This document shows positions 19,348 to 45,644 of a DNA stretch of 53,418 bases, piece after piece. Position numbers and translations under genes: made by a program. The first letter of the stretch is position 1, and each line of letters opens with the position of its first letter. A model generated the notes under the pieces. The model had not been told where the DNA came from. It was given only the letters and a program-made list of their open reading frames with translations, and made no database searches. The stretch is taken from contig JAAYBJ010000324.1 in the NCBI GenBank assembly GCA_012730105.1, positions 1 through 53,418 of the forward strand, given 5' to 3'. This stretch comes from Candidatus Hydrogenedentota bacterium (GTDB taxonomy: Bacteria; Hydrogenedentota; Hydrogenedentia; Hydrogenedentales; CAITNO01).

Positions 19348-20201
19348 GACCCCATCACCCTCATCCTCGCCTCTGCCCCGGCCTCAAAATATGTTTCAAT
19401 ACCAGGACCGTCCGCAGCGGCAAGAAGGTTTTCAAAATCGCTCAAACGGCCCCGGATCTCGGCCAGGACATCGCGCAACACTTCCCGGTTTTCAAGACAA
19501 ATGTCCCGCCAGATTTCCGGACGCGACAGGGCGATCCGCGTGGTATCCAGGAAACCGTTTCCAATCATGTCACGCCGGGCGCCGCACATGTCTGCGACAA
19601 GCGCCAGAGCAACGGCGGCCACATGGGGCGCATGACTGGTCCGGGCGAGTATGGCATCGTGCGCATGAACATCCAAATCCACCACGCGCGCGCCGCAAGA
19701 TCTCCACAAGGCGCAAGCACGGATGCGCGCGTCGGGATCAAGTTCATCATCTTTTTCAACCAGGCAGACCCGGTCCGTGAACAGATCCGCCCTGCCATTC
19801 TCCGGGCCGTAGCTTTCCGCGCCGGCCATGGGATGACATCCGATAAAACGCCTGGGCTTTGGACACACTTGGCGGGCATGAGCGCAGATAGCCCCCTTTG
19901 TGCTGGCCACATCAATAATAAGCGCACCTGCCGCGCAAACGGGCAGCACCAAGTCCAGCATGGGGGCGACGAGGCGGGCGGGTGTGGCAATGACGACCAA
20001 ATCGGCGCCCGTGGCGCCGGCAACGGCATCCGTGGCGATCGAATCGACCGCACCCCGCGCCCTGGCAATTTCCAGAGAGGCGGGCCGCCTTCCCACCCCG
20101 GTTATATGGGAGACCGTATTGCGTTTTTTCAGGGCTAGTCCCAGCGAGGCGCCCAGCAGCCCCACGCCGATGATCGCGGCCCCTTCAAAATGAATGGTCA
20201 T
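19344..20201 (-). CDS. tyrA: Prephenate dehydrogenase
   Basis: 285 residues; oxidises prephenate (or arogenate) with NAD(P) in tyrosine synthesis. The N-terminal Rossmann motif is GVGLLGASLGLAL, followed by GVGRRPASLEIA. The catalytic region contains FIGCHPMAGAESYGPENG, and the C-terminal half is the helical dimerisation domain with HDAILARTSHAPHVAA. No chorismate mutase or ACT domain is fused. It overlaps hisA by 4 bases and tmk by 4 bases, so translation is coupled. Confidence 0.92.
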   Translation of the reverse strand: MTIHFEGAAIIGVGLLGASLGLALKKRNTVSHITGVGRRPASLEIARARGAVDSIATDAVAGATGADLVVIATPARLVAPMLDLVLPVCAAGALIIDVASTKGAICAHARQVCPKPRRFIGCHPMAGAESYGPENGRADLFTDRVCLVEKDDELDPDARIRACALWRSCGARVVDLDVHAHDAILARTSHAPHVAAVALALVADMCGARRDMIGNGFLDTTRIALSRPEIWRDICLENREVLRDVLAEIRGRLSDFENLLAAADGPGIETYFEAGAEARMRVMGS

Positions 20202-20956
20202 GATCCTTCTTTCAATGCGGCAACCGCCTGGCTGACGGTAAAATGCCCCACGTATAAGGCACGCCCAATTATGATTTCATCAACACCCAAGGGTGCGAGG
20301 GCACGGGAATTGCGTATGTCGTCCAATGAAGAAACGCCCCCGGAAATAGTAACGGGAATGGAGACATTGCGGGCAACGTCGGCAGTAGTATCGTAATTGG
20401 GGCCATTCAACATACCGTCACTCAAAATATCGGTATAGATAATGCGCGCCGCACCCGCTTTCTCAACCGTCCGGGCAAAGTCAACGGCTTCCTCACCGGT
20501 ATTTTCGAGCCACCCGTTCAGCGAAACACAACCACCGCGCGCGTCGATTCCGGCGACAATACGCCCGGGCCAGCGTCGGCATGCTTCCCGCAGGAGTTCG
20601 GGATCGCGATACGCCGCCGTGCCCAGAATGGCCCGGGAGGCGCCCGCTTTGAAAACGGCCTCGAGGGTGTCGAGGGACCGCAACCCGCCTCCCAACTCAA
20701 AACAAATCCCGTGGTGGGCAAGCGCTATCAGTTGGGGCAATACGCAGCATACGCCTGTCTTCGCACCATCGAGGTCGACAATATGTATAACCGCGTCTTG
20801 GTATTCTTCCGAGGACAGGCATTGACCCAAGGCGTCCCACCAGGCACGGGCCTGCTCCACCGGATCTTCGGAAAATACGGTTTCCTGACAATAATCGCCC
20901 TGAACCAGGTTGACGCACAGACCGCCCCGGATATCTACCGCAGGGACAATCCGCAT
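20198..20956 (-). CDS. hisA: HisA: ProFAR isomerase (histidine biosynthesis)
   Basis: 252 residues, TIM barrel. It catalyses the fourth step of histidine synthesis, the Amadori rearrangement of ProFAR to PRFAR. Catalytic Asp8 lies in PAVDIRGG and a second Asp in VAGIDARGG. Phosphate-binding GGGLRSLD and ISGGVSSLDDIRN are visible. No other his gene is in the window, so hisA is separated from its pathway and placed with ribosomal genes. It begins 2 bases after rplT. Confidence 0.93.
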   Translation of the reverse strand: MRIVPAVDIRGGLCVNLVQGDYCQETVFSEDPVEQARAWWDALGQCLSSEEYQDAVIHIVDLDGAKTGVCCVLPQLIALAHHGICFELGGGLRSLDTLEAVFKAGASRAILGTAAYRDPELLREACRRWPGRIVAGIDARGGCVSLNGWLENTGEEAVDFARTVEKAGAARIIYTDILSDGMLNGPNYDTTADVARNVSIPVTISGGVSSLDDIRNSRALAPLGVDEIIIGRALYVGHFTVSQAVAALKEGS

Positions 20957-20958
20957 GG

Positions 20959-21321
20959 TTACGCTGCCGTCAGGGAAGCCTTGGCGCGTTCCACCAGCAC
21001 GGCGAAAGCCTCGGCGTTGTTTACCGCGAGTTCGGCAAGCATCTTGCGGTCCAGGCCGATTTCCGCCTTGCGCAGTCCTTCCATGAGGCGGTTATACGTC
21101 ATGCCATTGGCGCGGGCTCCGGCATTGATGCGCGCAATCCACAGACGGCGGAATTCGCGCTTGCGGTTCTTGCGATCGCGATACGCGTAAACACCGCTGT
21201 GGTCAACCGCCTGCTTGGCGGTTTTAAAGAGACGATGACGGCTTCCGCGGTAACCGGCGGCCTGTTTGAGTACTTTGTTACGACGGCGCCTTGACGCCGG
21301 ATTATTGGTTGCTCGTGGCAT
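20959..21321 (-). CDS. rplT: Ribosomal protein L20
   Basis: 120 residues, the normal length. It is a large-subunit assembly protein that binds 23S rRNA. The basic N-terminal arm ([19 protein letters not shown]) and core [22 protein letters not shown] are diagnostic. The start has AAGGAA at 7 bases; nine further codons upstream are not used. In Bacillus, L20 represses its own operon by promoting termination in the infC leader, which fits the attenuator found upstream here. It lies 105 bases after rpmI. Confidence 0.97.
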
Positions 21322-21426: not shown

Positions 21427-21624
21427 TCACGCATAAGGCAGCAGGCGCTTGATCCGCGGGATTTCCTCCAGCGAAGCATGCGTGGACTGGCGCAAGTTAC
21501 GCCTGCGTTTGGGGCTTTTCACGGCCTTCAGGTGCCTGGCATAAGCATGCTGACGTTTAAACTTGCCGTTCTTGGTCCGGCTGAAGCGCTTGGACGCGCT
21601 GCGGTTGGTTTTCATTTTCGGCAT
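21427..21624 (-). CDS. rpmI: Ribosomal protein L35
   Basis: 65 residues, MPKMKTNRSASKRFSRTKNG start, the invariant L35 opening. The C-terminus is slightly acidic-basic mixed as usual. AGGAGA lies 10 bases before the ATG. The 38 upstream in-frame codons have no L35 similarity. It sits between infC and rplT, the universal order. Confidence 0.97.
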   Translation of the reverse strand: MPKMKTNRSASKRFSRTKNGKFKRQHAYARHLKAVKSPKRRRNLRQSTHASLEEIPRIKRLLPYA

Positions 21625-21766: not shown

Positions 21767-22300
21767 TTATTTGCTGGGTGTCAACACCAGCGACATATTC
21801 CGGCCTTCCAGCTTGATATGATTCGTGTCGTGATCACCGACGCACAGATCCGAGGTAGCCTCAACAACACGCTGGATTATTTCACGTCCAAATTCCTGAT
21901 GGGCCATCTCACGTCCCCGAAACATAATGGTGATCCGGACCTTATTGCCTTCCGCCAGGAACTCCCGCACATGATTTGTCTTAAAATCAAAATCATGTTT
22001 GTCAATTTTGGGGCGATATTTAATTTCTTTTACGGAAACGGTATGCTGGTGTTTCCTGGATTCCCGAGCGCGCCGCTTCTGCTCATAGCGATACTTGCCG
22101 TAATCCATAATCCGGCATACGGGCGGCGTCGCTTTCGGCGCCACCTCCACCAGGTCAAAACCATGGCTTTCCGCTTCACGAAGGGCATCTCTAGGTGTCA
22201 TAATGCCCAATTGCGCACCTTCTTCATCAATCACGCGCACCTGGCGTGCGCGGATCTGGTCATTGACACGTACCAGATCTTCCTTCTTTTCCTTGGCGAT
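21767..22300 (-). CDS. infC: Translation initiation factor IF-3 with AUC start codon
   Basis: 177 residues if begun at ATC 22300 (E. coli has 180). IF-3 keeps the 30S subunit free and checks the start codon. The protein reads MAKEKKEDLVRVND, then QIRARQVRVIDEEG, matching the conserved IF-3 N-domain; the C-domain holds KIDKHDFDFKTNHVREFL. In frame, a TAG lies at 22315-22313, and the first usual start (GTG 22240) would cut off the conserved N-terminus. No ATG, GTG or TTG lies between. ATC sits 9 bases after AGGAG, so AUC is the best start. E. coli infC uses AUU for self-control; the same logic probably applies here. Confidence 0.9.
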   Translation of the reverse strand: MAKEKKEDLVRVNDQIRARQVRVIDEEGAQLGIMTPRDALREAESHGFDLVEVAPKATPPVCRIMDYGKYRYEQKRRARESRKHQHTVSVKEIKYRPKIDKHDFDFKTNHVREFLAEGNKVRITIMFRGREMAHQEFGREIIQRVVEATSDLCVGDHDTNHIKLEGRNMSLVLTPSK

Positions 22301-22383
22301 GGGTAGAGTCTCCTATAGGCCGCCAACCGGCCGGACAAACCGACACAATAAACCGCGAGGCCACATCACATCGCGGCCAAAAC

Positions 22384-22419
22384 AAAAAAAAAGCGGCAAA
22401 GGCACCTCACCTTTGTCGC
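22384..22419 (-). terminator. Intrinsic terminator in the infC leader
   Basis: CAAAGG and CCTTTG form a 6-bp stem around a 7-base loop. It is extended past one mismatch by GCG with CGC and followed immediately by nine Ts on the minus strand. It lies about 84 bases ahead of infC and after the promoter, so it can only act as a conditional terminator for the operon. Confidence 0.8.
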
Positions 22420-22509
22420 GGAATATAGTTGGACACATTTCACGTCCATCTGTTCGCAACCAAGCAGGCAAGCCCGGAGACCGCCGCAAGGTGAGGAAAA
22501 ACCTTCCTT
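22384..22509 (-). promoter_or_regulatory. infC operon leader attenuator (L20-leader-like)
   Basis: Three competing RNA pairings can be drawn on the minus strand. (1) CCTTCCTT's complement AAGGAAGG can pair partly with CCTCACCTT across a TTTTT loop (22488-22509). (2) CCTCACCTT (22488-22496) is a perfect 9-base complement of AAGGTGAGG (22405-22413), extended by GCGG with CCGC after a bulge. (3) AAAGGTGAGG is otherwise consumed by the terminator hairpin. Pairing 2 excludes 3, and pairing 1 excludes 2. In Bacillus, L20 controls infC-rpmI-rplT by such attenuation. The ligand here is inferred to be L20; the sequence alone does not prove it. Confidence 0.7.
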
Positions 22510-22550
22510 CTTCGCGGTGGAACCAGCCGTAACTGTTTCCACAATAAGAA

Positions 22551-22580
22551 AGTGTAGCAAAAATTGCCCTCGACAATCAA
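22551..22580 (-). promoter_or_regulatory. Probable sigma70 promoter of the infC operon
   Basis: TTGATT (22580-22575) and TACACT (22556-22551) are 18 bases apart on the minus strand. Transcription would start near 22543, giving a leader of about 240 bases that contains the whole attenuator. Other -35 registers (TTGTCG, 14-base spacer) fit worse. Confidence 0.5.
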
Positions 22581-22632: not shown

Positions 22633-24099
22633 CTATCCCGCCGTTGTTTCCATCAGCGTCGCATAAAACATGATCATGCGACTAAAATCTTCGATACCCA
22701 GGCGTTCATTGGGTCCGTGCATGCGTTCGAGATCTTCCTGAGACATACGCAAAGGCAGAAAGCCGTATATGTTATCCGTAACGACGTGATAATGGTGGGA
22801 ATCACTTCCGCCCAACATCAGGCCGGGCGCAACGATCACTTCCGGAAACACGGCGCGTATGGCGGTGTGTACCGTGGCAAAAGCGGGGCCGTCTACTTGG
22901 GACGGATCGGGTGATGGATAGGCCTCGCACGTAGGGGTTATGGCGACCCGGTCATCATTGACAAGACGTCGCGTCCGCTCCGTAACAGCCTCTACAGTGT
23001 CCCCCGGCAGCAACCGGTAATTAACCACGGCCCGGGCCTCGGCGGGCAGCACATTCTCGGTATGGCCCCCTTCGATAATTGTGAACGCCGTGGTAGTCCG
23101 GATGGCCGCATCGGTGGTACGTGATCCCGCAAGTTGCTTTAGAAGCAGAGGCCGGGTCAACCACAGGTTGGCGAAAAACGCCCGCATGGGGAAGGATATT
23201 TCAGGTCCCAAGTAACGGAACATATGACGGACAGGATCTGTCATGCGGGCGGACATGGGCGATTCCGCCACCCGGGTGACGGCAGTGGCCAATGCGCCGA
23301 TGGCGGTTTCGCGGGGCGGGGTGCTGGAATGGCCGGGTTCACTCTCCGTCTTGAGTTCAAGGCTGAGGTATCCTTTTTCCGTAAGCGCCACCAAGGCGAT
23401 GTCCCGGTCCACCCCGAACATATCCCCCCCCACAATAACCAGCCCCTCATCCAGGGTGAATTCAGCCTTGACACCCCGTTCCGCCAGAGTCGCGGCAATG
23501 ACAGCCGCGCCTTTATAGCCGCCCACTTCCTCGTCATGTCCGAAACAACAATAAATGTCCCGGCCCGGCTGAAACCCCTGTTCCAGCAGGGATTCCACCG
23601 CTTCCAGAATAGCGATCAAACTCCCCTTGTCATCCATGGCGCCGCGCCCCCAGACATACCCGTCCGCCACCTCACCACCGAACGGGGGGCGGATCCAAGC
23701 ATCCCCTTCCGGGGCCGGCACAACATCCTGGTGGGCCAAAAAAACAATCGCCTTTTGCGATGAATCCGTTCCCGGCCACTGATAGAGCAAACTCAGTCCG
23801 CCGATCCGTTCTTTGCGCAACTTTTGATGCACCAGGGGAAATCTTTCTTCAAGCAGAACATGCAGCGCCTGAAAAACGCCCGGATCCATCTCAGACGGGT
23901 CCCTGGAAGACAAGGTCTCCAGTTGTAAGGCCGAGGACAGTGCCGCCACAGCACGTTCAAGATTCACTTCGGGTAAGACCCGTTCTTCGGGCGTGATTTG
24001 CATGGAACGAAACGTCAATGCACGGTACAGCACTGTTCCGATAAGAATCAGAACGATAGCCCCCAAAAGCAAAGAAGTTTTCTTTATAAACGGTTTCAC
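22633..24099 (-). CDS. M20-family metallopeptidase, membrane-anchored
   Basis: 488 residues. One N-terminal membrane segment (LLLGAIVLILIGTVLYRAL) anchors an M20 peptidase of the PM20D1/carboxypeptidase S type. Zinc-site motifs are visible: LAHQDVVPAPEGD (His, with Asp two residues after), GRGAMDDKGSL, HDEEVGGYKG (catalytic Glu-Glu) and the late GGSDSHHY. A lid domain (about residues 240-350) contains GHSSTPPRE. The family removes C-terminal or N-acyl amino acids; the substrate here is not known. The start is GTG with no clear ribosome binding site. It is downstream of the PASTA/FGE protein gene by 130 bases. Confidence 0.85.
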   Translation of the reverse strand: MKPFIKKTSLLLGAIVLILIGTVLYRALTFRSMQITPEERVLPEVNLERAVAALSSALQLETLSSRDPSEMDPGVFQALHVLLEERFPLVHQKLRKERIGGLSLLYQWPGTDSSQKAIVFLAHQDVVPAPEGDAWIRPPFGGEVADGYVWGRGAMDDKGSLIAILEAVESLLEQGFQPGRDIYCCFGHDEEVGGYKGAAVIAATLAERGVKAEFTLDEGLVIVGGDMFGVDRDIALVALTEKGYLSLELKTESEPGHSSTPPRETAIGALATAVTRVAESPMSARMTDPVRHMFRYLGPEISFPMRAFFANLWLTRPLLLKQLAGSRTTDAAIRTTTAFTIIEGGHTENVLPAEARAVVNYRLLPGDTVEAVTERTRRLVNDDRVAITPTCEAYPSPDPSQVDGPAFATVHTAIRAVFPEVIVAPGLMLGGSDSHHYHVVTDNIYGFLPLRMSQEDLERMHGPNERLGIEDFSRMIMFYATLMETTAG

Positions 24100-24229: not shown

Positions 24230-27151
24230 CTATTGTCGAACCACGCGGAAACCCGCCGAATAATGGGAGCGATCGGCGGGATTAACCGCCCAGCGCATGG
24301 TAGAGGTGCATAGATAAGCATCATTGGCATTGCCGCCACGCATTACCCGGTTTTCGCCCCGGGGCGAATCCAGCCAGGCCGTTCCATCCACGGGGACGTT
24401 CAGATAATTCCAGTGCCAGTCGTCTTCGCAGTACTCCCAGCAATTCCCGTGCATATCGTACAGGCCGAAAGCATTGGGCAGTTTCAAGCCGACCCGCGCC
24501 GCAACACCTTTGTCATAATTACCGCAAAACCACATGTATTTGCCCCGTATCCCGTCATCTTCACAGTTGTCACCGATCTCCGAATCCCCAAAATAAAAGC
24601 GCGTTTGCGTGCCGGCGCGGCAGGCATATTCCCACTCCGCCTCGGTAGGCAGGCGAAAAGTTGCGGTCCCTTGCCCGGTGTCCAAAATGTGGGCATTCAA
24701 CGCGTCAATAAAATTGTGGGCGTCCTCCCAGGAAATGTAATACATGGGATAGTCATCGCCAATCCCCATCCACTCCACAGGTTCGTTCTCCGGCCACACG
24801 TTCATCAGCGCCAACCATTGCCGCTGGGTCAATTCATACTTCGCCATGCAAAAATCATGGGCGAGGGTCACATTGTGCACGGGCCCTTCACGGGAGGGTT
24901 CTGTTGTCGCGCCCATTTGAAAGGAGCCTGCAGGTACATGGACCAGCACGAGAGGTACATTCCCGGGTAATAACACAGACATCTCATCGACGTTATGCAG
25001 CGGACCGAAGACGTAAGAATGCTCCGCCGTTTCACTGGGCGCGTATCCCGTTTTCCATGCCCGCGTTTTCAAGGTCCGTGCGGTCCCTTCCGGACCACCC
25101 AAAATGAAGGGCCCTGTATAAAGAGGCGAATCCGCATCGGGTTCACTCCCATTTGTGGTATACCGTATTTCCGCATCTTCATCATCACATGAAAGCCGTA
25201 CAACATAATAGGGGCAACCGGTATTCGCATAGGGCGAAATCACAGGAGCGGAGACCTGCTCGAGATCTTCGGAAAGATCCCAGCACCCGCCTTCCCAAAG
25301 CGTATGACGCACCTCAAATAATTCTATGGGGTCCGGCGCCCATTCCCAAACGAACAAGTCCGCATAAACACCCACACCACCATCGATGCCGACATCGAGC
25401 TTCGGCGCAGGGGGACAGGGATAATGGGCGTCAAAATTCAGGAAGGGTCTTATCTGCACATAGGCGCCGACACGACCGTAAAGGGCAATATCCACTTTGG
25501 GTTTAAGAAAGACCTTGGCATCCAGAGAGGCACTCACATCAAGTTCCGGTCCCAGAAATTCATTCCCCAATTCCAGACTGGACAGGCTTGTCAGCACATC
25601 ATTGGCATACACGGCCCCTAATGTCATGTTCGTTTGGGACCGGAACCCGGCATAAAGGCTTGCCTGACCCTCCAGCGTCAGTTCAAATCCCGCCGAAGCG
25701 GACAAGGTCACTACCAGCGGTGTGGAAGGAATTGGGAAGGGCACCGAGGCCAAAGGAATTTCATGTTGCAGTTCATAGGCGCTTGTGACCGCCAGCAGCG
25801 CGCCCAACTGCAACAGCATACCGCCTGAGAGAACGGCGGAAAATTCCTGCACTTCCCCTGCTTGGATAATCAGCGTGTAAGAAAGATCAGGCGTCAACAA
25901 GACCCGGCCATCACAAAGGGAGGCTGAGAATATATCATCGGAATATACCGGGAAATCGGCCAGAAAATCCTCCAGAATGGTCCCATCCGTGTCCAACGTA
26001 ATAGGTATGGATCCCTCCAGATTCAATTCGTCGAATACATTTTCCAGGGCGGCATCGACGGTGTCGACAATAATTTCTCCGCCCTCCTCCACAACGCTTC
26101 CAGCTTCCCGCAGAAAGCCTACCGCACTATCCGTTAGTCCTTTTTCATCCGTATATTGATAACCAAAAGAAGAAGAAATCAGTATATTTCCTGGTACGAG
26201 CAATTCGGTTTTGGAAGTCATCCCCGCAAAAACCAGTTGATTCGGGCGCACTTCAATCAATTGCAATTCCGGATATTTTTCAATAAAAACGGCTTTCTGC
26301 GCGGGAGTTCCGTGTTTGACAAGAGGATCCGCATTGCTGTAGTACAGGGCACCGTCGCTGAAGCCGTCACCGGAGGTATCCCACAAGGCCGGGTCAGACC
26401 CGATTTCTGTTTCCAACCCGTCCGGAAGCCCGTCGCCATCACCATCCGCCGCCGCCGCCACGGTAATAAAGTTCTCTTTTGTCAGATATGCCTCTCCGGC
26501 ATCCGAATAGACTTTCAAATTCACCGGGTAAACCCCCGGCGTAACGTAGCGATGTGCGGGATGCTGTTCAAGGCTCTTCCCCCCATCTCCAAAGTCCCAT
26601 ATCCAGCCACGTACGGGCACAGAACCGGATTCTGAAAGGTCCGTGAAACTGACAGTTAACGGCCAAAAACCCGATGAAGGCGCCGCCGTAAAATCGACCA
26701 CCGGCCCTTCAGCCAACGGCAGTTCCTCCTCGCCTTCGGGTGTTTCTCCTTCGCCTTCCACGGGTTGCTCGCCTTCTCCCTCTTTTACGGGCTCCCCTTC
26801 ACCTTCCTCTGTCGCCTCGCCTTCTCCTTCCAAGGCCATTTCCCCTTCGCCCTCTTCTGGCGTTCCGGGACCACGCGAGACCACCAGGTTAACCAAGGAA
26901 CCCTCTTCCACCCGTTCCCCCGCACCCGGCGTCTGGCGAATTACCACCCCCTCCGGCATGTCGCCGCCCGGCTCTTCCATTACAGTACCCACATTAAGGC
27001 CGGAAGCATTCAGCGCCGCAGCCGCAGCCAATACCGTCATCCCGGTCACATCGGGAACAGTAACCCTCCGCGAAATACATCCCAACCCTGCCAGGCCGGG
27101 TAAAAGGGCCACAATACATATCCAGCCGCAAGCAAACCACGTTCGATGCAT
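24230..27151 (-). CDS. Surface protein: PASTA + EGEGE linker + PKD + FGE-like domain
   Basis: 973 residues. A signal sequence ends in a poor lipobox (AGLGC). One PASTA domain (about residues 30-80) is followed by an EGEGE linker (about 82-140), a PKD domain (DFGDGGKSLEQHPAHRY) and a calcium-type DGDGDGLPDGLETEIGSDP segment. A long beta-rich region comes next, then a CHB_HEX_C-like domain (IRYTTNGSEPDADSPLYTGP) and a C-terminal formylglycine-generating-enzyme fold (FRLPTEAEWEYACRAG, NAFGLYDMHGNCWEY). The paired catalytic Cys of true FGE seem incomplete: one Cys lies in LCTSTMRW (about 948) and its partner position in RGGNANDAY is not Cys. So sulfatase activation is doubtful. The ATG follows GGAGGG at 7 bases; a start 15 codons earlier is less likely. 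Confidence 0.8.
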   Translation of the reverse strand: MHRTWFACGWICIVALLPGLAGLGCISRRVTVPDVTGMTVLAAAAALNASGLNVGTVMEEPGGDMPEGVVIRQTPGAGERVEEGSLVNLVVSRGPGTPEEGEGEMALEGEGEATEEGEGEPVKEGEGEQPVEGEGETPEGEEELPLAEGPVVDFTAAPSSGFWPLTVSFTDLSESGSVPVRGWIWDFGDGGKSLEQHPAHRYVTPGVYPVNLKVYSDAGEAYLTKENFITVAAAADGDGDGLPDGLETEIGSDPALWDTSGDGFSDGALYYSNADPLVKHGTPAQKAVFIEKYPELQLIEVRPNQLVFAGMTSKTELLVPGNILISSSFGYQYTDEKGLTDSAVGFLREAGSVVEEGGEIIVDTVDAALENVFDELNLEGSIPITLDTDGTILEDFLADFPVYSDDIFSASLCDGRVLLTPDLSYTLIIQAGEVQEFSAVLSGGMLLQLGALLAVTSAYELQHEIPLASVPFPIPSTPLVVTLSASAGFELTLEGQASLYAGFRSQTNMTLGAVYANDVLTSLSSLELGNEFLGPELDVSASLDAKVFLKPKVDIALYGRVGAYVQIRPFLNFDAHYPCPPAPKLDVGIDGGVGVYADLFVWEWAPDPIELFEVRHTLWEGGCWDLSEDLEQVSAPVISPYANTGCPYYVVRLSCDDEDAEIRYTTNGSEPDADSPLYTGPFILGGPEGTARTLKTRAWKTGYAPSETAEHSYVFGPLHNVDEMSVLLPGNVPLVLVHVPAGSFQMGATTEPSREGPVHNVTLAHDFCMAKYELTQRQWLALMNVWPENEPVEWMGIGDDYPMYYISWEDAHNFIDALNAHILDTGQGTATFRLPTEAEWEYACRAGTQTRFYFGDSEIGDNCEDDGIRGKYMWFCGNYDKGVAARVGLKLPNAFGLYDMHGNCWEYCEDDWHWNYLNVPVDGTAWLDSPRGENRVMRGGNANDAYLCTSTMRWAVNPADRSHYSAGFRVVRQ
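26715..26862 (-). repeat. EGEGE coding repeat in the PASTA/FGE protein
   Basis: About 50 codons made of degenerate GEGE(x)n units (EEGEGEMALEGEGEATEEGE and so on). It is shorter and more diverged than the tract in the gene at 40635-43793. It probably forms a flexible, highly acidic spacer between PASTA and PKD domains. Confidence 0.75.
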
Positions 27152-27478
27152 ACTCCATCCCTCCATTAAAGGATTTCGCTGTCGCCCCATCAGCAACGGC
27201 CCATTTGCCTGATAGAGAGCACAGATACAAGATCGTTTAACTATTCAAAACAGTATACACCAGATAATCGTGATACGCCGAAAAATCGCACCGTCCCGCG
27301 CAGTTATACCCTGGCCAAACAGGAACCACCCGTTGGGAACGTGCAACAACCTTCCGCAGGCATTCCTCGAGTATTTTGCTCCATTGAAAATGCCTTGATT
27401 CCCCCCCCTCGGTTGCGGGTAGACTATACCATCTTTACTTTTCAGTATCCTGTGGATTAACTTGGAGGAGTGCGCGGC
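27152..27478. other. Divergent promoter region
   Basis: 327 bases between the minus-strand PASTA/FGE gene and the plus-strand symporter gene, so promoters of both must lie here. For the symporter, TTGATT (27395-27400) and TAGACT (27420-27425) are 19 bases apart with a C-run between, a weak candidate. A TATACT box is seen on the other strand near 27256. No operator-like repeat is visible. Confidence 0.4.
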
Positions 27479-40634: not shown

Positions 40635-43600
40635 TTAGTCCTCCACCAGAACTGTCCTTGTGACGGTAAGCGGCGTATTCGCATTCGTGGTTGCCACGCT
40701 GGTATAGGTCACCAGATACGGCGTGTTTCCCATGTCCAGTGTTTCAATAAACGGTACAATGTTATCACTCTTGTCTGTGAGCACTTCACTCTCGATTTCC
40801 AAAGGTGTGTTGAGCGCATCATCATCCCAGGCATAAGCGCCGGCGGCAGGAATAAAGTTGTGTGAGGACACCTCAGGACGTACGGTTTCCCACGTTGAAC
40901 CGGCCGCAACGGTCATCGGACTTTCTCCATAAAGCCCTACGCCCGCAACATTTGTCTCTGTAACATCACAAACGATCACAAACCTTATGGAATTGCCCTG
41001 ATTACCACTATTGTCCCGGATATAATAACCCGCCAAATAGGCGCCCGGCGCACTCAGCCAGGTATTCGCATCCAAGCCAACGGTTTCCAATGCCAGACCG
41101 TATAATTCTCCTGGCCATACGGGATTTTCATAATCAGGATACACCCGGCTGATGACCTCTTCACATTCATCCACCGGCAGATAACCTTCACACAGGTCGT
41201 ACACTTCCACCAGGACAATACCAAAAGCGGCTTTAGCCTCGTCCCAATGGCCGTAGTCAGCACATCCGGCCATGTATAAGGGAATGCCCGACCCCGGCTC
41301 AATATAGGAAGGATTGTCAATCACAACGACCAGTGGAGGCTGCGTGTCCAACGCGTCAATCATGCGGACTTCCTCAAGCAGCCCCGGTTCTTCCGTGCCG
41401 GGCTGTTCATACTGGTAACGGTAGGTGGCGCGATAGGGCGAATTCTCAGCCAGAAACACATTGCTGCCCGGATCTATCACTATCCAGTCATCGCCTGACT
41501 GGTACTCGACCGTGGCGGCATAAATCGGCCCGGCAATCACTCCCCCCCCGCCATACACTTCCGCACCGGGATCGTCCCATAACCCACCGCACTCCACGCT
41601 ATCCGGATCAGCTCCAAGGAGTGTCATGACCTGCGGCTCCGGACCCAAAGATACCGTTAATTCCACAGGAATACCGCATTCGAATATTCCGGGGGCAGGG
41701 ATCTGGCTTATAACCGTGCCGGGGGAGGACGACTCCCATGTTGTGTTGATCGACACATTTGTAAAGCCTGCTGATGTAAGCAACGTAGTTGCCTCAGCCT
41801 CGGTACGGCCCCAAAGCTGGGGCATTTCACATGGTCCTTCTGAAAGCGTTATGTTAACGGCGGAACCGCAAGGAGCCGGGTCGCCAGCGAAGGGCGATTG
41901 GGCAATGACCGTGCCCGGCGGCGCTACTGAGGGCGCGGTAGTCACGGAACCGGACACATATCCGGCCGCCACAATAGCGGCCTCAGCCGATTCCTGTGTC
42001 ATACCGGAAAGGTCCGGAACGGAACAGGGGCCCAGGGAAACCAACAGACGCACCGTAGAGCCACAGGGAACTTCTTGCCCCGATGCCGGATCTTGTGAAA
42101 TAACCGTACCTGCGGCAGAATCACCATGCCCCTCTGTTATCTCGGCAACAAGATGCGCGGCTATAATCATTTCCACAGCATCCGCCACAGGAAGGGCATA
42201 CCCCCCCACGGCGGGTACTAATGTGGTACTTAAAACCTCCACATAACGCGGATATTCGGCAGCCTGCAGGACTGACACATTACCCACTACATCCATCACC
42301 GTATAGTCAAGCCGGTACAGCCCCGGAAAATTTGTAAATTCCGCCAGGTCCACCGTGATATCGTTGCCATATTCGTCCTGCTGGACCTGAAAAGCGGCAT
42401 CCAGCAGTCGGACTGTTACCACCACATCGCCCCAATAGTCCGTCGGGCTCTCCCCGCCACACATATCCAACGCCGTGCCCGAATCAATACTGGCCCAGTC
42501 GGCGAGGCAACTTATTTCGTGCACATGATAATATGCCGGCCACAATTCCCAATGGGGCACAAAGTCGCGATAACCATATTCAAAAAGGCCTAATGTCTGG
42601 ATGGCTGCCACTTGGATAACCGGAGCCTGGGTATCTACAACCGCAACCGTCCGGGTAATGGTGAGAGGGCCACCCGCCACCGGATTGGCGGTATAGGAGA
42701 TGAGATACGATTCGCCCAAAGCTGCCAGGGAAGAAACAATTGCGTCAACAATCACATCATCCAGCGTAATTACAGTCTCGACACTCAATGTAGTTCCATC
42801 CGCATCAAAGGCAACCGCACCAGGATCCAGAAATTCGGATCCACATTCAACGCTGTTAATTTCAGGGGCCATAAGTTCTATCAGCGGTTCACCCTCGCCT
42901 TCGCCCTCTGGAAGCACTTCACCCTCGCCTTCGGGAAGCATCTCGCCTTCGCCCTCTGGAAGCACTTCGCCCTCGCCTTCGGGAAGTATTTCGCCTTCGC
43001 CCTCTGGAAGCACTTCACCCTCGCCTTCGGGCAGTATTTCGCCTTCGCCCTCTGGAAGCACTTCGCCCTCGCCTTCGGGCAGTATTTCGCCCTCGCCCTC
43101 TGGAAGCACTTCGCCCTCGCCTTCGGGCAGTATTTCGCCTTCGCCCTCTGGAAGCACTTCGCCCTCGCCTTCGGGCAGTATTTCGCCCTCACCCTCTGGA
43201 AGCACTTCGCCCTCGCCTTCGGACAGTATTTCGCCTTCACCCTCTGGCGGTTCTTCACCCTCGCCTTCGAGCAGTATTTCGCCCTCACCCTCTGGAAGCA
43301 CTTCACCCTCGCCTTCGGGCAGTATTTCGCCCTCACCCTCTGGAAGCACTTCGCCCTCGCCTTCGGGCAGTATTTCGCCCTCACCCTCTGGAAGCACTTC
43401 ACCCTCGCCTTCGGGAAGCATTTCGCCTTCGCCCTCTGGAAGCACTTCACCTTCGCCTTCTGGCAGTTCTTCACCCTCGCCTTCGGGTAATATTTCGCCC
43501 TCACCCTCTGGTGGTATTTCGCCTTCAACGACAATTTCCCCTTCGAGTTCACCTTCGTCGGGTTCCCCTTCGTGCAATTCCCCCTCACCTTCCACACGTT

Positions 43601-43793
43601 CTCCTTCCTGCGGCTCTCCCTCGCCCTCTTCAGGTTCTCCTTCCTCCGGTTGACAACCATCGCAACCTGATCCGCCCAGGCACTTTGTAACGAATACAGA
43701 CATATTCTCATTGGGCGGCGGACAGCCCATTACAGAAATCAGCACAGCTATAACTGATGCTAACAATGCGACATGAAAAAAATATTTACCCAT
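40635..43793 (-). CDS. Large surface lipoprotein: EGEGE array, PASTA-like repeats
   Basis: 1052 residues. Lipobox VMGC puts the lipid on Cys24. Residues about 50-302 are Glu-Gly-rich, mostly 8-residue units (EGEGEVLP / EGEGEILP). Then come Ig-like DUF5011-type segments (EINSVECGSEFLDPGAVAFDADG). Next are three PASTA-like repeats, each ending with a Cys pair (PCGSTVRLLVSLGPC, PCGSAVNITLSEGPC, ECGIPVELTVSLGP), and a last set of Ig-like domains. PASTA often binds muropeptides, but this copy is fused to a secretion anchor rather than a kinase. The likely role is cell-surface adhesion or structure. The start has AAGGA at 8 bases and a near-consensus promoter. Confidence 0.85.
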   Translation of the reverse strand: MGKYFFHVALLASVIAVLISVMGCPPPNENMSVFVTKCLGGSGCDGCQPEEGEPEEGEGEPQEGERVEGEGELHEGEPDEGELEGEIVVEGEIPPEGEGEILPEGEGEELPEGEGEVLPEGEGEMLPEGEGEVLPEGEGEILPEGEGEVLPEGEGEILPEGEGEVLPEGEGEILLEGEGEEPPEGEGEILSEGEGEVLPEGEGEILPEGEGEVLPEGEGEILPEGEGEVLPEGEGEILPEGEGEVLPEGEGEILPEGEGEVLPEGEGEILPEGEGEVLPEGEGEMLPEGEGEVLPEGEGEGEPLIELMAPEINSVECGSEFLDPGAVAFDADGTTLSVETVITLDDVIVDAIVSSLAALGESYLISYTANPVAGGPLTITRTVAVVDTQAPVIQVAAIQTLGLFEYGYRDFVPHWELWPAYYHVHEISCLADWASIDSGTALDMCGGESPTDYWGDVVVTVRLLDAAFQVQQDEYGNDITVDLAEFTNFPGLYRLDYTVMDVVGNVSVLQAAEYPRYVEVLSTTLVPAVGGYALPVADAVEMIIAAHLVAEITEGHGDSAAGTVISQDPASGQEVPCGSTVRLLVSLGPCSVPDLSGMTQESAEAAIVAAGYVSGSVTTAPSVAPPGTVIAQSPFAGDPAPCGSAVNITLSEGPCEMPQLWGRTEAEATTLLTSAGFTNVSINTTWESSSPGTVISQIPAPGIFECGIPVELTVSLGPEPQVMTLLGADPDSVECGGLWDDPGAEVYGGGGVIAGPIYAATVEYQSGDDWIVIDPGSNVFLAENSPYRATYRYQYEQPGTEEPGLLEEVRMIDALDTQPPLVVVIDNPSYIEPGSGIPLYMAGCADYGHWDEAKAAFGIVLVEVYDLCEGYLPVDECEEVISRVYPDYENPVWPGELYGLALETVGLDANTWLSAPGAYLAGYYIRDNSGNQGNSIRFVIVCDVTETNVAGVGLYGESPMTVAAGSTWETVRPEVSSHNFIPAAGAYAWDDDALNTPLEIESEVLTDKSDNIVPFIETLDMGNTPYLVTYTSVATTNANTPLTVTRTVLVED
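42889..43646 (-). repeat. 24/48-bp tandem repeat encoding EGEGE units
   Basis: About 25 units of 24 bases, pairing into 48-base units (EVLPEGEG then EILPEGEG). The DNA is near-identical across many copies, so slippage or recombination can change copy number in steps of 24 or 48 bases without loss of frame. Confidence 0.9.
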
Positions 43794-43905: not shown

Positions 43906-44143
43906 GTTTTCCTGTTCTACCGAGGACGTTCCTTCTAAAGAAATAACAATATTCGAAGATGATTTCTCTACCTATAAATATTCAACTCTTATGCTTTAGA
44001 TTCCCGCTAACAGGCGCCTTCTTCTGTATCGAAATTGGAGACCTCATAGGCGGTATATGCAGGATTAATTGGGCACGTTTTCCTGCAAATAAGCCAAGAT
44101 ATTCCTCTCCCAGGACGACACTGCTTTTGTGTTAAAAAAATAA

Positions 44144-44169
44144 CGGCGGACAGCCGTAACCGTCCGCCG
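44144..44169 (-). terminator. Terminator of gnd, bidirectional
   Basis: CGGCGGAC and GTCCGCCG form a perfect 8-bp stem with a 10-base loop. On the minus strand it is followed by TTATTTTTTT, and on the plus strand by eight As preceding a pyrimidine-free tail. It lies 23 bases after the gnd stop. Confidence 0.85.
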
Positions 44170-44192
44170 AAAAAAAAGACCTTCAGGTATTT

Positions 44193-45644
<1,452 letters not shown>

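Follow-up and report, generated by a model that had tools for sequence, protein, structure and literature searches.

Organization of the infC-rpmI-rplT Locus

In the analyzed stretch of Candidatus Hydrogenedentota DNA (53,418 nucleotides, hereafter the window), the genes infC, rpmI, and rplT were located consecutively on the minus strand. Among named genomes, Hydrogenedentota MAGs contained the closest relatives of this infC. The infC gene (21767–22300) encoded IF3 (Pfam IF3_N and IF3_C), and its start codon, ATC, was inferred from conservation in 55 relatives; rpmI (21427–21624) encoded L35 (Pfam PF01632), and rplT (20959–21321, Pfam PF00453), with a start inferred at MPRATNN, encoded L20, the presumed regulator. 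Directly after rplT, on the same strand, hisA (20198–20956) was found, followed by a prephenate-dehydrogenase-like gene, and not the pheST genes, which are often found downstream of rplT. Elsewhere in the window, the minus strand encoded surface-type proteins (24230–27196 and 43500–43700) containing long runs of glutamate and glycine (EGEGEGE-like), which were also seen in relatives (L180).

The leader was located before the operon, as in L20-type attenuators, between the end of the upstream M20 peptidase gene (22633) and the start of infC (22300). Its elements followed each other, 5' to 3' on the minus strand, in the order hairpin H1, hinge CUCACC, helix H2, linker, terminator, and nine T. 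H1 (AGGAA-GGTTT-TTCCT, 22494–22508), the proposed anti-antiterminator, had a homologous helix in relatives, and H2 (22459–22492), the base of which (ACC/GGU) adjoined H1, was supported by pairing and by both-side changes in relatives. Together with the hinge they made up the predicted L20-binding half (22454–22518, model R2), with the conserved sequence AAGNAG...CUCACCUUGC...GGUU. The intrinsic terminator (22393–22419), identified from the sequence, a terminator scan, and a homologous helix, lay between the binding site and infC, again as in L20-type attenuators; its stem paired 22419–22410 with 22402–22393 over 10 positions with one A–C mismatch (GCGaCAAAGG/CCUUUGcCGC), and its loop was UGAGGUG. 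The antiterminator 5' arm CCUCACCUU (22488–22496) overlapped the 3' strand of H1 and the 5' strand of H2 and was a perfect complement of the 3' arm AAGGUGAGG (22405–22413), which comprised the upper 5' arm of the terminator plus the loop and was assigned from complementarity, duplex prediction, and folds.

Thus, the layout proposed in the first-pass annotation was recovered: a terminator with nine T in the infC leader (T at 22392–22384), an exact 9-base complement (CCTCACCTT, 22496–22488, with AAGGTGAGG, 22413–22405, minus strand), and a hairpin hiding the antiterminator arm (H1, 22508–22494), while the four-base GCGG/CCGC extension of the complement was possible across a bulge according to duplex prediction. 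A candidate promoter, TTGATT-N18-TACACT (22551–22580, minus strand), was read by eye; it matched 8 of 12 consensus positions, was below the threshold of the promoter scan, and might place the leader start near 22544, giving a terminated RNA of ~160 nt.

The ATC of infC (22300–22298), preceded by a Shine-Dalgarno sequence GGAG (22313–22310), agreed with relatives, and infC therefore begins with one of the rare start codons AUU, AUC, and AUA. A rare AUC start behind a good Shine-Dalgarno sequence is the usual setting for IF3 autoregulation. According to a simple scan of 55 relatives, infC starts with ATC in 39, ATA in 14, and ATT in 1, and in Firmicutes loci with L20 leaders it starts with ATT or ATA. 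Because 54 of the 55 relatives and the Firmicutes loci share this feature, a rare start next to an L20 leader is the normal state of the operon; the rare start that had been singled out earlier beside the attenuator was confirmed as ATC, but it is not special to this organism.

Chance Baseline of the Layout

Of 5000 dinucleotide-shuffled versions of the upstream 119 nt, 1.1% contained a perfect complement, 9 bases or longer, to the 5' arm and loop of the terminator, and the simple terminator scan revealed no excess over shuffles. The layout alone is therefore weak evidence. The single-sequence folding energy was only mildly low (z = −1.8). The 9-bp complement by itself is mildly improbable (P about 0.01), and the case for a switch rests on comparative evidence.

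Profile and Covariance Model Searches

A search with the Rfam L20_leader model (RF00558), suggested in the first-pass annotation, gave a significant full-length match in the window (22379–22518, minus strand; consensus positions 1–127 of 127; E-value = 0.008 for 1 kb); the score of 26.6 bits, however, was below the gathering score of 58.7 bits, which is a curator's cut-off and not a biological feature, and the best relative reached 54.6 bits. One match each was detected in 27 of 60 relatives (E-value ≤ 1 × 10−3, best 7.6 × 10−10), none above the cut-off, and 26 of these matches were directly upstream of infC; the 27th (G034, contig 17) was a terminator after rpsI and was regarded as a chance match, as was a match of the Rfam SOX2OT model on the other strand of the window.

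The covariance model R1, built from 25 leaders, none of them from the family of the window, recovered the window leader out of sample (68.8 bits, E-value = 1 × 10−18) and matched 51 of the 55 infC loci of the phylum. Matches were present in 57 of 68 phylum genomes; the remaining 11 comprised five without an infC match in the assembly, four of genus g13, and G006 and G061, and the G006 leader was matched once its infC locus was searched directly. Model R2, which represented the L20-binding half alone, without the terminator, and was also built without the family of the window, scored 43 bits at this site (E-value = 4.7 × 10−8 over the whole 5.6-Mb genome), the next best place scoring 16.9 bits. 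A second R1 match in the window (44129–44276, minus strand, 21 bits) was spurious, since a strong intrinsic terminator (CGGCGGACGGttacggcTGTCCGCCG followed by a T run) lies there after a probable 6-phosphogluconate dehydrogenase gene. G024 and G048 yielded additional weak matches, but not before infC. Two R1 matches in G060, considered as tandem leaders, were rejected as such, being halves of one leader parted by a long palindromic insert. This insert (AGGCTTTAGG...CCTAAAGCCT, ~100 nt; L178, G060 contig 494, 14199–14432, minus strand) separates the L20 site from the terminator, and the linker seems to tolerate insertions.

Conservation and Covariation of the Leader

In 27 aligned leaders of the phylum, 24 of the 30 consensus pairs had changes on both sides that kept the pairing, and 92.8% of cells were paired, compared with 80% in shuffles and ~40% in slid controls. 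The helix homologous to H1 was paired in 97.5% (compensatory changes in 4 of 6 pairs) and that homologous to H2 in 94.4% of cells (both-side changes in 9 of 12 pairs), and compensatory changes were found in 11 of the 12 pairs of the terminator helix. The H1–hinge–H2 motif, AAGNAGAAGC.CC.GCUUCUCACCUUGC...GC..GGUU, was nearly invariant at key positions, and the H1–H2 junction, predicted to bind L20, was conserved (A1/A2 conservation and model R2). A T run preceded infC in nearly all relatives, mostly 50–115 nt before the gene. The covariation in homologous leaders that had been named earlier as a check was accordingly present: 51 of 55 infC leaders kept the element and showed compensatory changes.

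According to R1, the leader was absent from four of the 55 infC loci, all of genus g13 (G029, G039, G034, and G022; L157–L160). This is an AT-rich genus of Hydrogenedentota with an ATA start of infC and no clear terminator before the gene, and the absence of the leader was read as a lineage loss. Taken together, the sequence, structure, gene context, covariation, and profile searches support the original reading of the region as an L20-type attenuator, and these comparisons argue for a real RNA switch, unannotated in an uncultured phylum distant from Bacillus.

Antiterminator Pairing

Over most of the phylum, H1 (apical loop and 3' strand, e.g., GCACCAG) can pair with the terminator at its upper 5' arm and loop (CUGGUGC), and the partners change together (CACCCG/CGGGUG, CGCCGG/CUGGCG, CUCUGC/GCAGAG). 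In a swap test with 36 genera, own partners had a pairing energy of −16.4 kcal/mol versus −12.7 kcal/mol for swapped partners (z = −8.3, 0 of 20,000 permutations), whereas a segment lower down that terminator arm showed no own-partner effect (z = −1.0) and thus served as a negative control. Since related genera are not independent, permutation within families only was added (z = −5.7; swap tests keep composition); inside family f1 alone, the test was not significant (p = 0.08). Firmicutes and Actinomycetota leaders showed the same effect (z = −5.1 and −2.2, respectively). The antiterminator formed in 31 of the 36 genera in transcript prefixes ending before the terminator 3' arm, pair counts were also above controls, and a strong antiterminator was missing in genera g3, g6, g7, g10, and g23. 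Phylum-wide covariation thus revealed an alternative antiterminator that is mutually exclusive with the binding site, more weakly inside the family of the window. It is the many diverged leaders that supply this covariation evidence.

In the window, the antiterminator arm was shifted to CCUCACCUU, with a duplex energy of −16.7 kcal/mol, and the pairing was present in the minimum-energy fold (−57.7 kcal/mol, compared with −52.5 kcal/mol for an enforced H1-plus-terminator state) and in transcript prefixes. The exact 9-bp register was not kept in two genomes of the same genus (duplex −7.4 and −12.0 kcal/mol, not formed in prefixes), which retained the site and the terminator without strong antiterminator pairing. 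The pairing noted in the first-pass annotation is therefore exact in the window, but its CCUCACCUU/AAGGUGAGG register is a shifted version that these two genomes do not share. A tentative reading, to which we give a smaller share of probability, is that the antiterminator was rewired in the family of the window, its arm having left the H1 loop for the L20-binding hinge (CCUCACCUU) or having been lost in sister genera. In that case, L20 binding and terminator formation would draw on one set of nucleotides in direct competition, the conserved leader would contain a variant switch, and the diverged leaders would show a rewired antiterminator beside a fixed binding site.

Proposed Mechanism and Alternative Explanations

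The leader very probably belongs to the Bacillus type (the RF00558 kind) and controls infC-rpmI-rplT by transcription attenuation. In the absence of free L20, the 3' strand of H1 and the hinge would pair with the upper 5' arm and loop of the terminator, and transcription would read on into infC. L20 in excess of its 23S rRNA sites would bind and hold H1–hinge–H2, withdrawing the antiterminator arm, so that the terminator (22393–22419) could form and transcription would stop at the T run, ~85 nt before infC. With the antiterminator present in the minimum-energy fold, transcription would read through by default, and we infer, by analogy with B. subtilis, that L20 binding tips the balance to termination. 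L20 is accordingly named here as the presumable ligand, with the direction of control and termination itself likewise predicted. Separately, the AUC start behind a good Shine-Dalgarno sequence may allow IF3 to limit its own translation.

It might be supposed that the RNA binds L20 but that, in the lineage of the window, the hairpin works chiefly as a terminator that is in part constitutive and simply stabilized by L20, the 9-bp antiterminator being chance or incidental. The genomes of the same genus and several of family f1, which keep the binding site and the terminator and not a strong antiterminator, are consistent with this, as is the chance of about 1% for a 9-bp match; however, strong covariation of the pairing is seen both in Firmicutes and across most of the phylum, and the pairing of the window is itself strong (−16.7 kcal/mol), which makes this explanation rather unlikely. 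IF3 and L35 are further products of the operon, and the leader could answer either of these, or translation, instead of L20; its conserved motif, however, matches the one in the L20 leader of Firmicutes, in which mutations of the H1–H2 junction abolish repression of the L20 operon (PMC6097659), and the probability of such a signal is very low.

An even less probable explanation is that the terminator merely ends the transcript of the M20 peptidase gene or insulates infC, the complement being coincidental. Intergenic terminators are common, and the upstream gene is on the same strand and ends at 22633, but the compensatory changes in a conserved binding half, the single match per genome before infC across families, and the covariation of the antiterminator with the terminator already contradict it.

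Range and Comparison with Known Leaders

The B. subtilis infC-rpmI-rplT leader (RF00558) was reportedly characterized by Choonee in 2007. R1 also matched Firmicutes L20 leaders, one above the Rfam cut-off, and the Rfam L20_leader model also matched in Thermotoga maritima. R1 likewise matched infC leaders of contigs labelled Actinomycetota (L065, L088, L096, L100, L090, L054, and others); matches of such leaders to the L20 leader model scored up to 45.9 bits, none reaching the Rfam gathering score. A 2018 paper describes this L20 RNA as having a narrow distribution, in Firmicutes (PMC6097659), and Gammaproteobacteria and Deltaproteobacteria have other L20 leaders (PMC7247131); in the literature search, no report of an L20 leader in Hydrogenedentota was found. 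Since the leader is present throughout Hydrogenedentota and the Actinomycetota loci are missed by the Rfam cut-off, its range has been underestimated. The kind of RNA is already known, whereas the wider range and the shifted antiterminator of the window are new.

For the operon, the binding site, and the logic of the terminator, the corresponding arrangement is established in B. subtilis (PMC6097659, PMC10931766), where the terminator is stabilized by L20 binding and mutations of the junction lift repression (PMC6097659). The window leader shares with RF00558 the operon, the order H1–hinge–H2–linker–terminator with the terminator before infC, the AAGNAG/CUCACCUU/GGU motif, an antiterminator between H1 and the 5' side of the terminator, and the rare infC start; it differs in scoring below the Rfam cut-off. 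The partner of the H1 loop is the upper arm and loop of the terminator (CUGGUG) in most Hydrogenedentota, whereas it is the lower stem in Firmicutes; the window has a pairing displaced to the hinge. The Deltaproteobacteria L20 r-leader is similar as a proposed mimic of the 23S rRNA L20 site, but it represents yet another structural scaffold in another lineage (PMC7247131); 23S rRNA, sought for a comparison of such mimicry, was not found in the assembly of the window. The E. coli rpmI-rplT operator likewise provides L20 autogenous control of the same genes, but this control is translational, involves a pseudoknot plus a hairpin, and does not extend to infC (PMC10931766). As described in PMC10931766, the B. 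subtilis L10(L12)4 rplJL attenuator (PMC4538822) has the same terminator/antiterminator/anti-antiterminator logic driven by a ribosomal protein, whereas its ligand, RNA motif, and operon are different.
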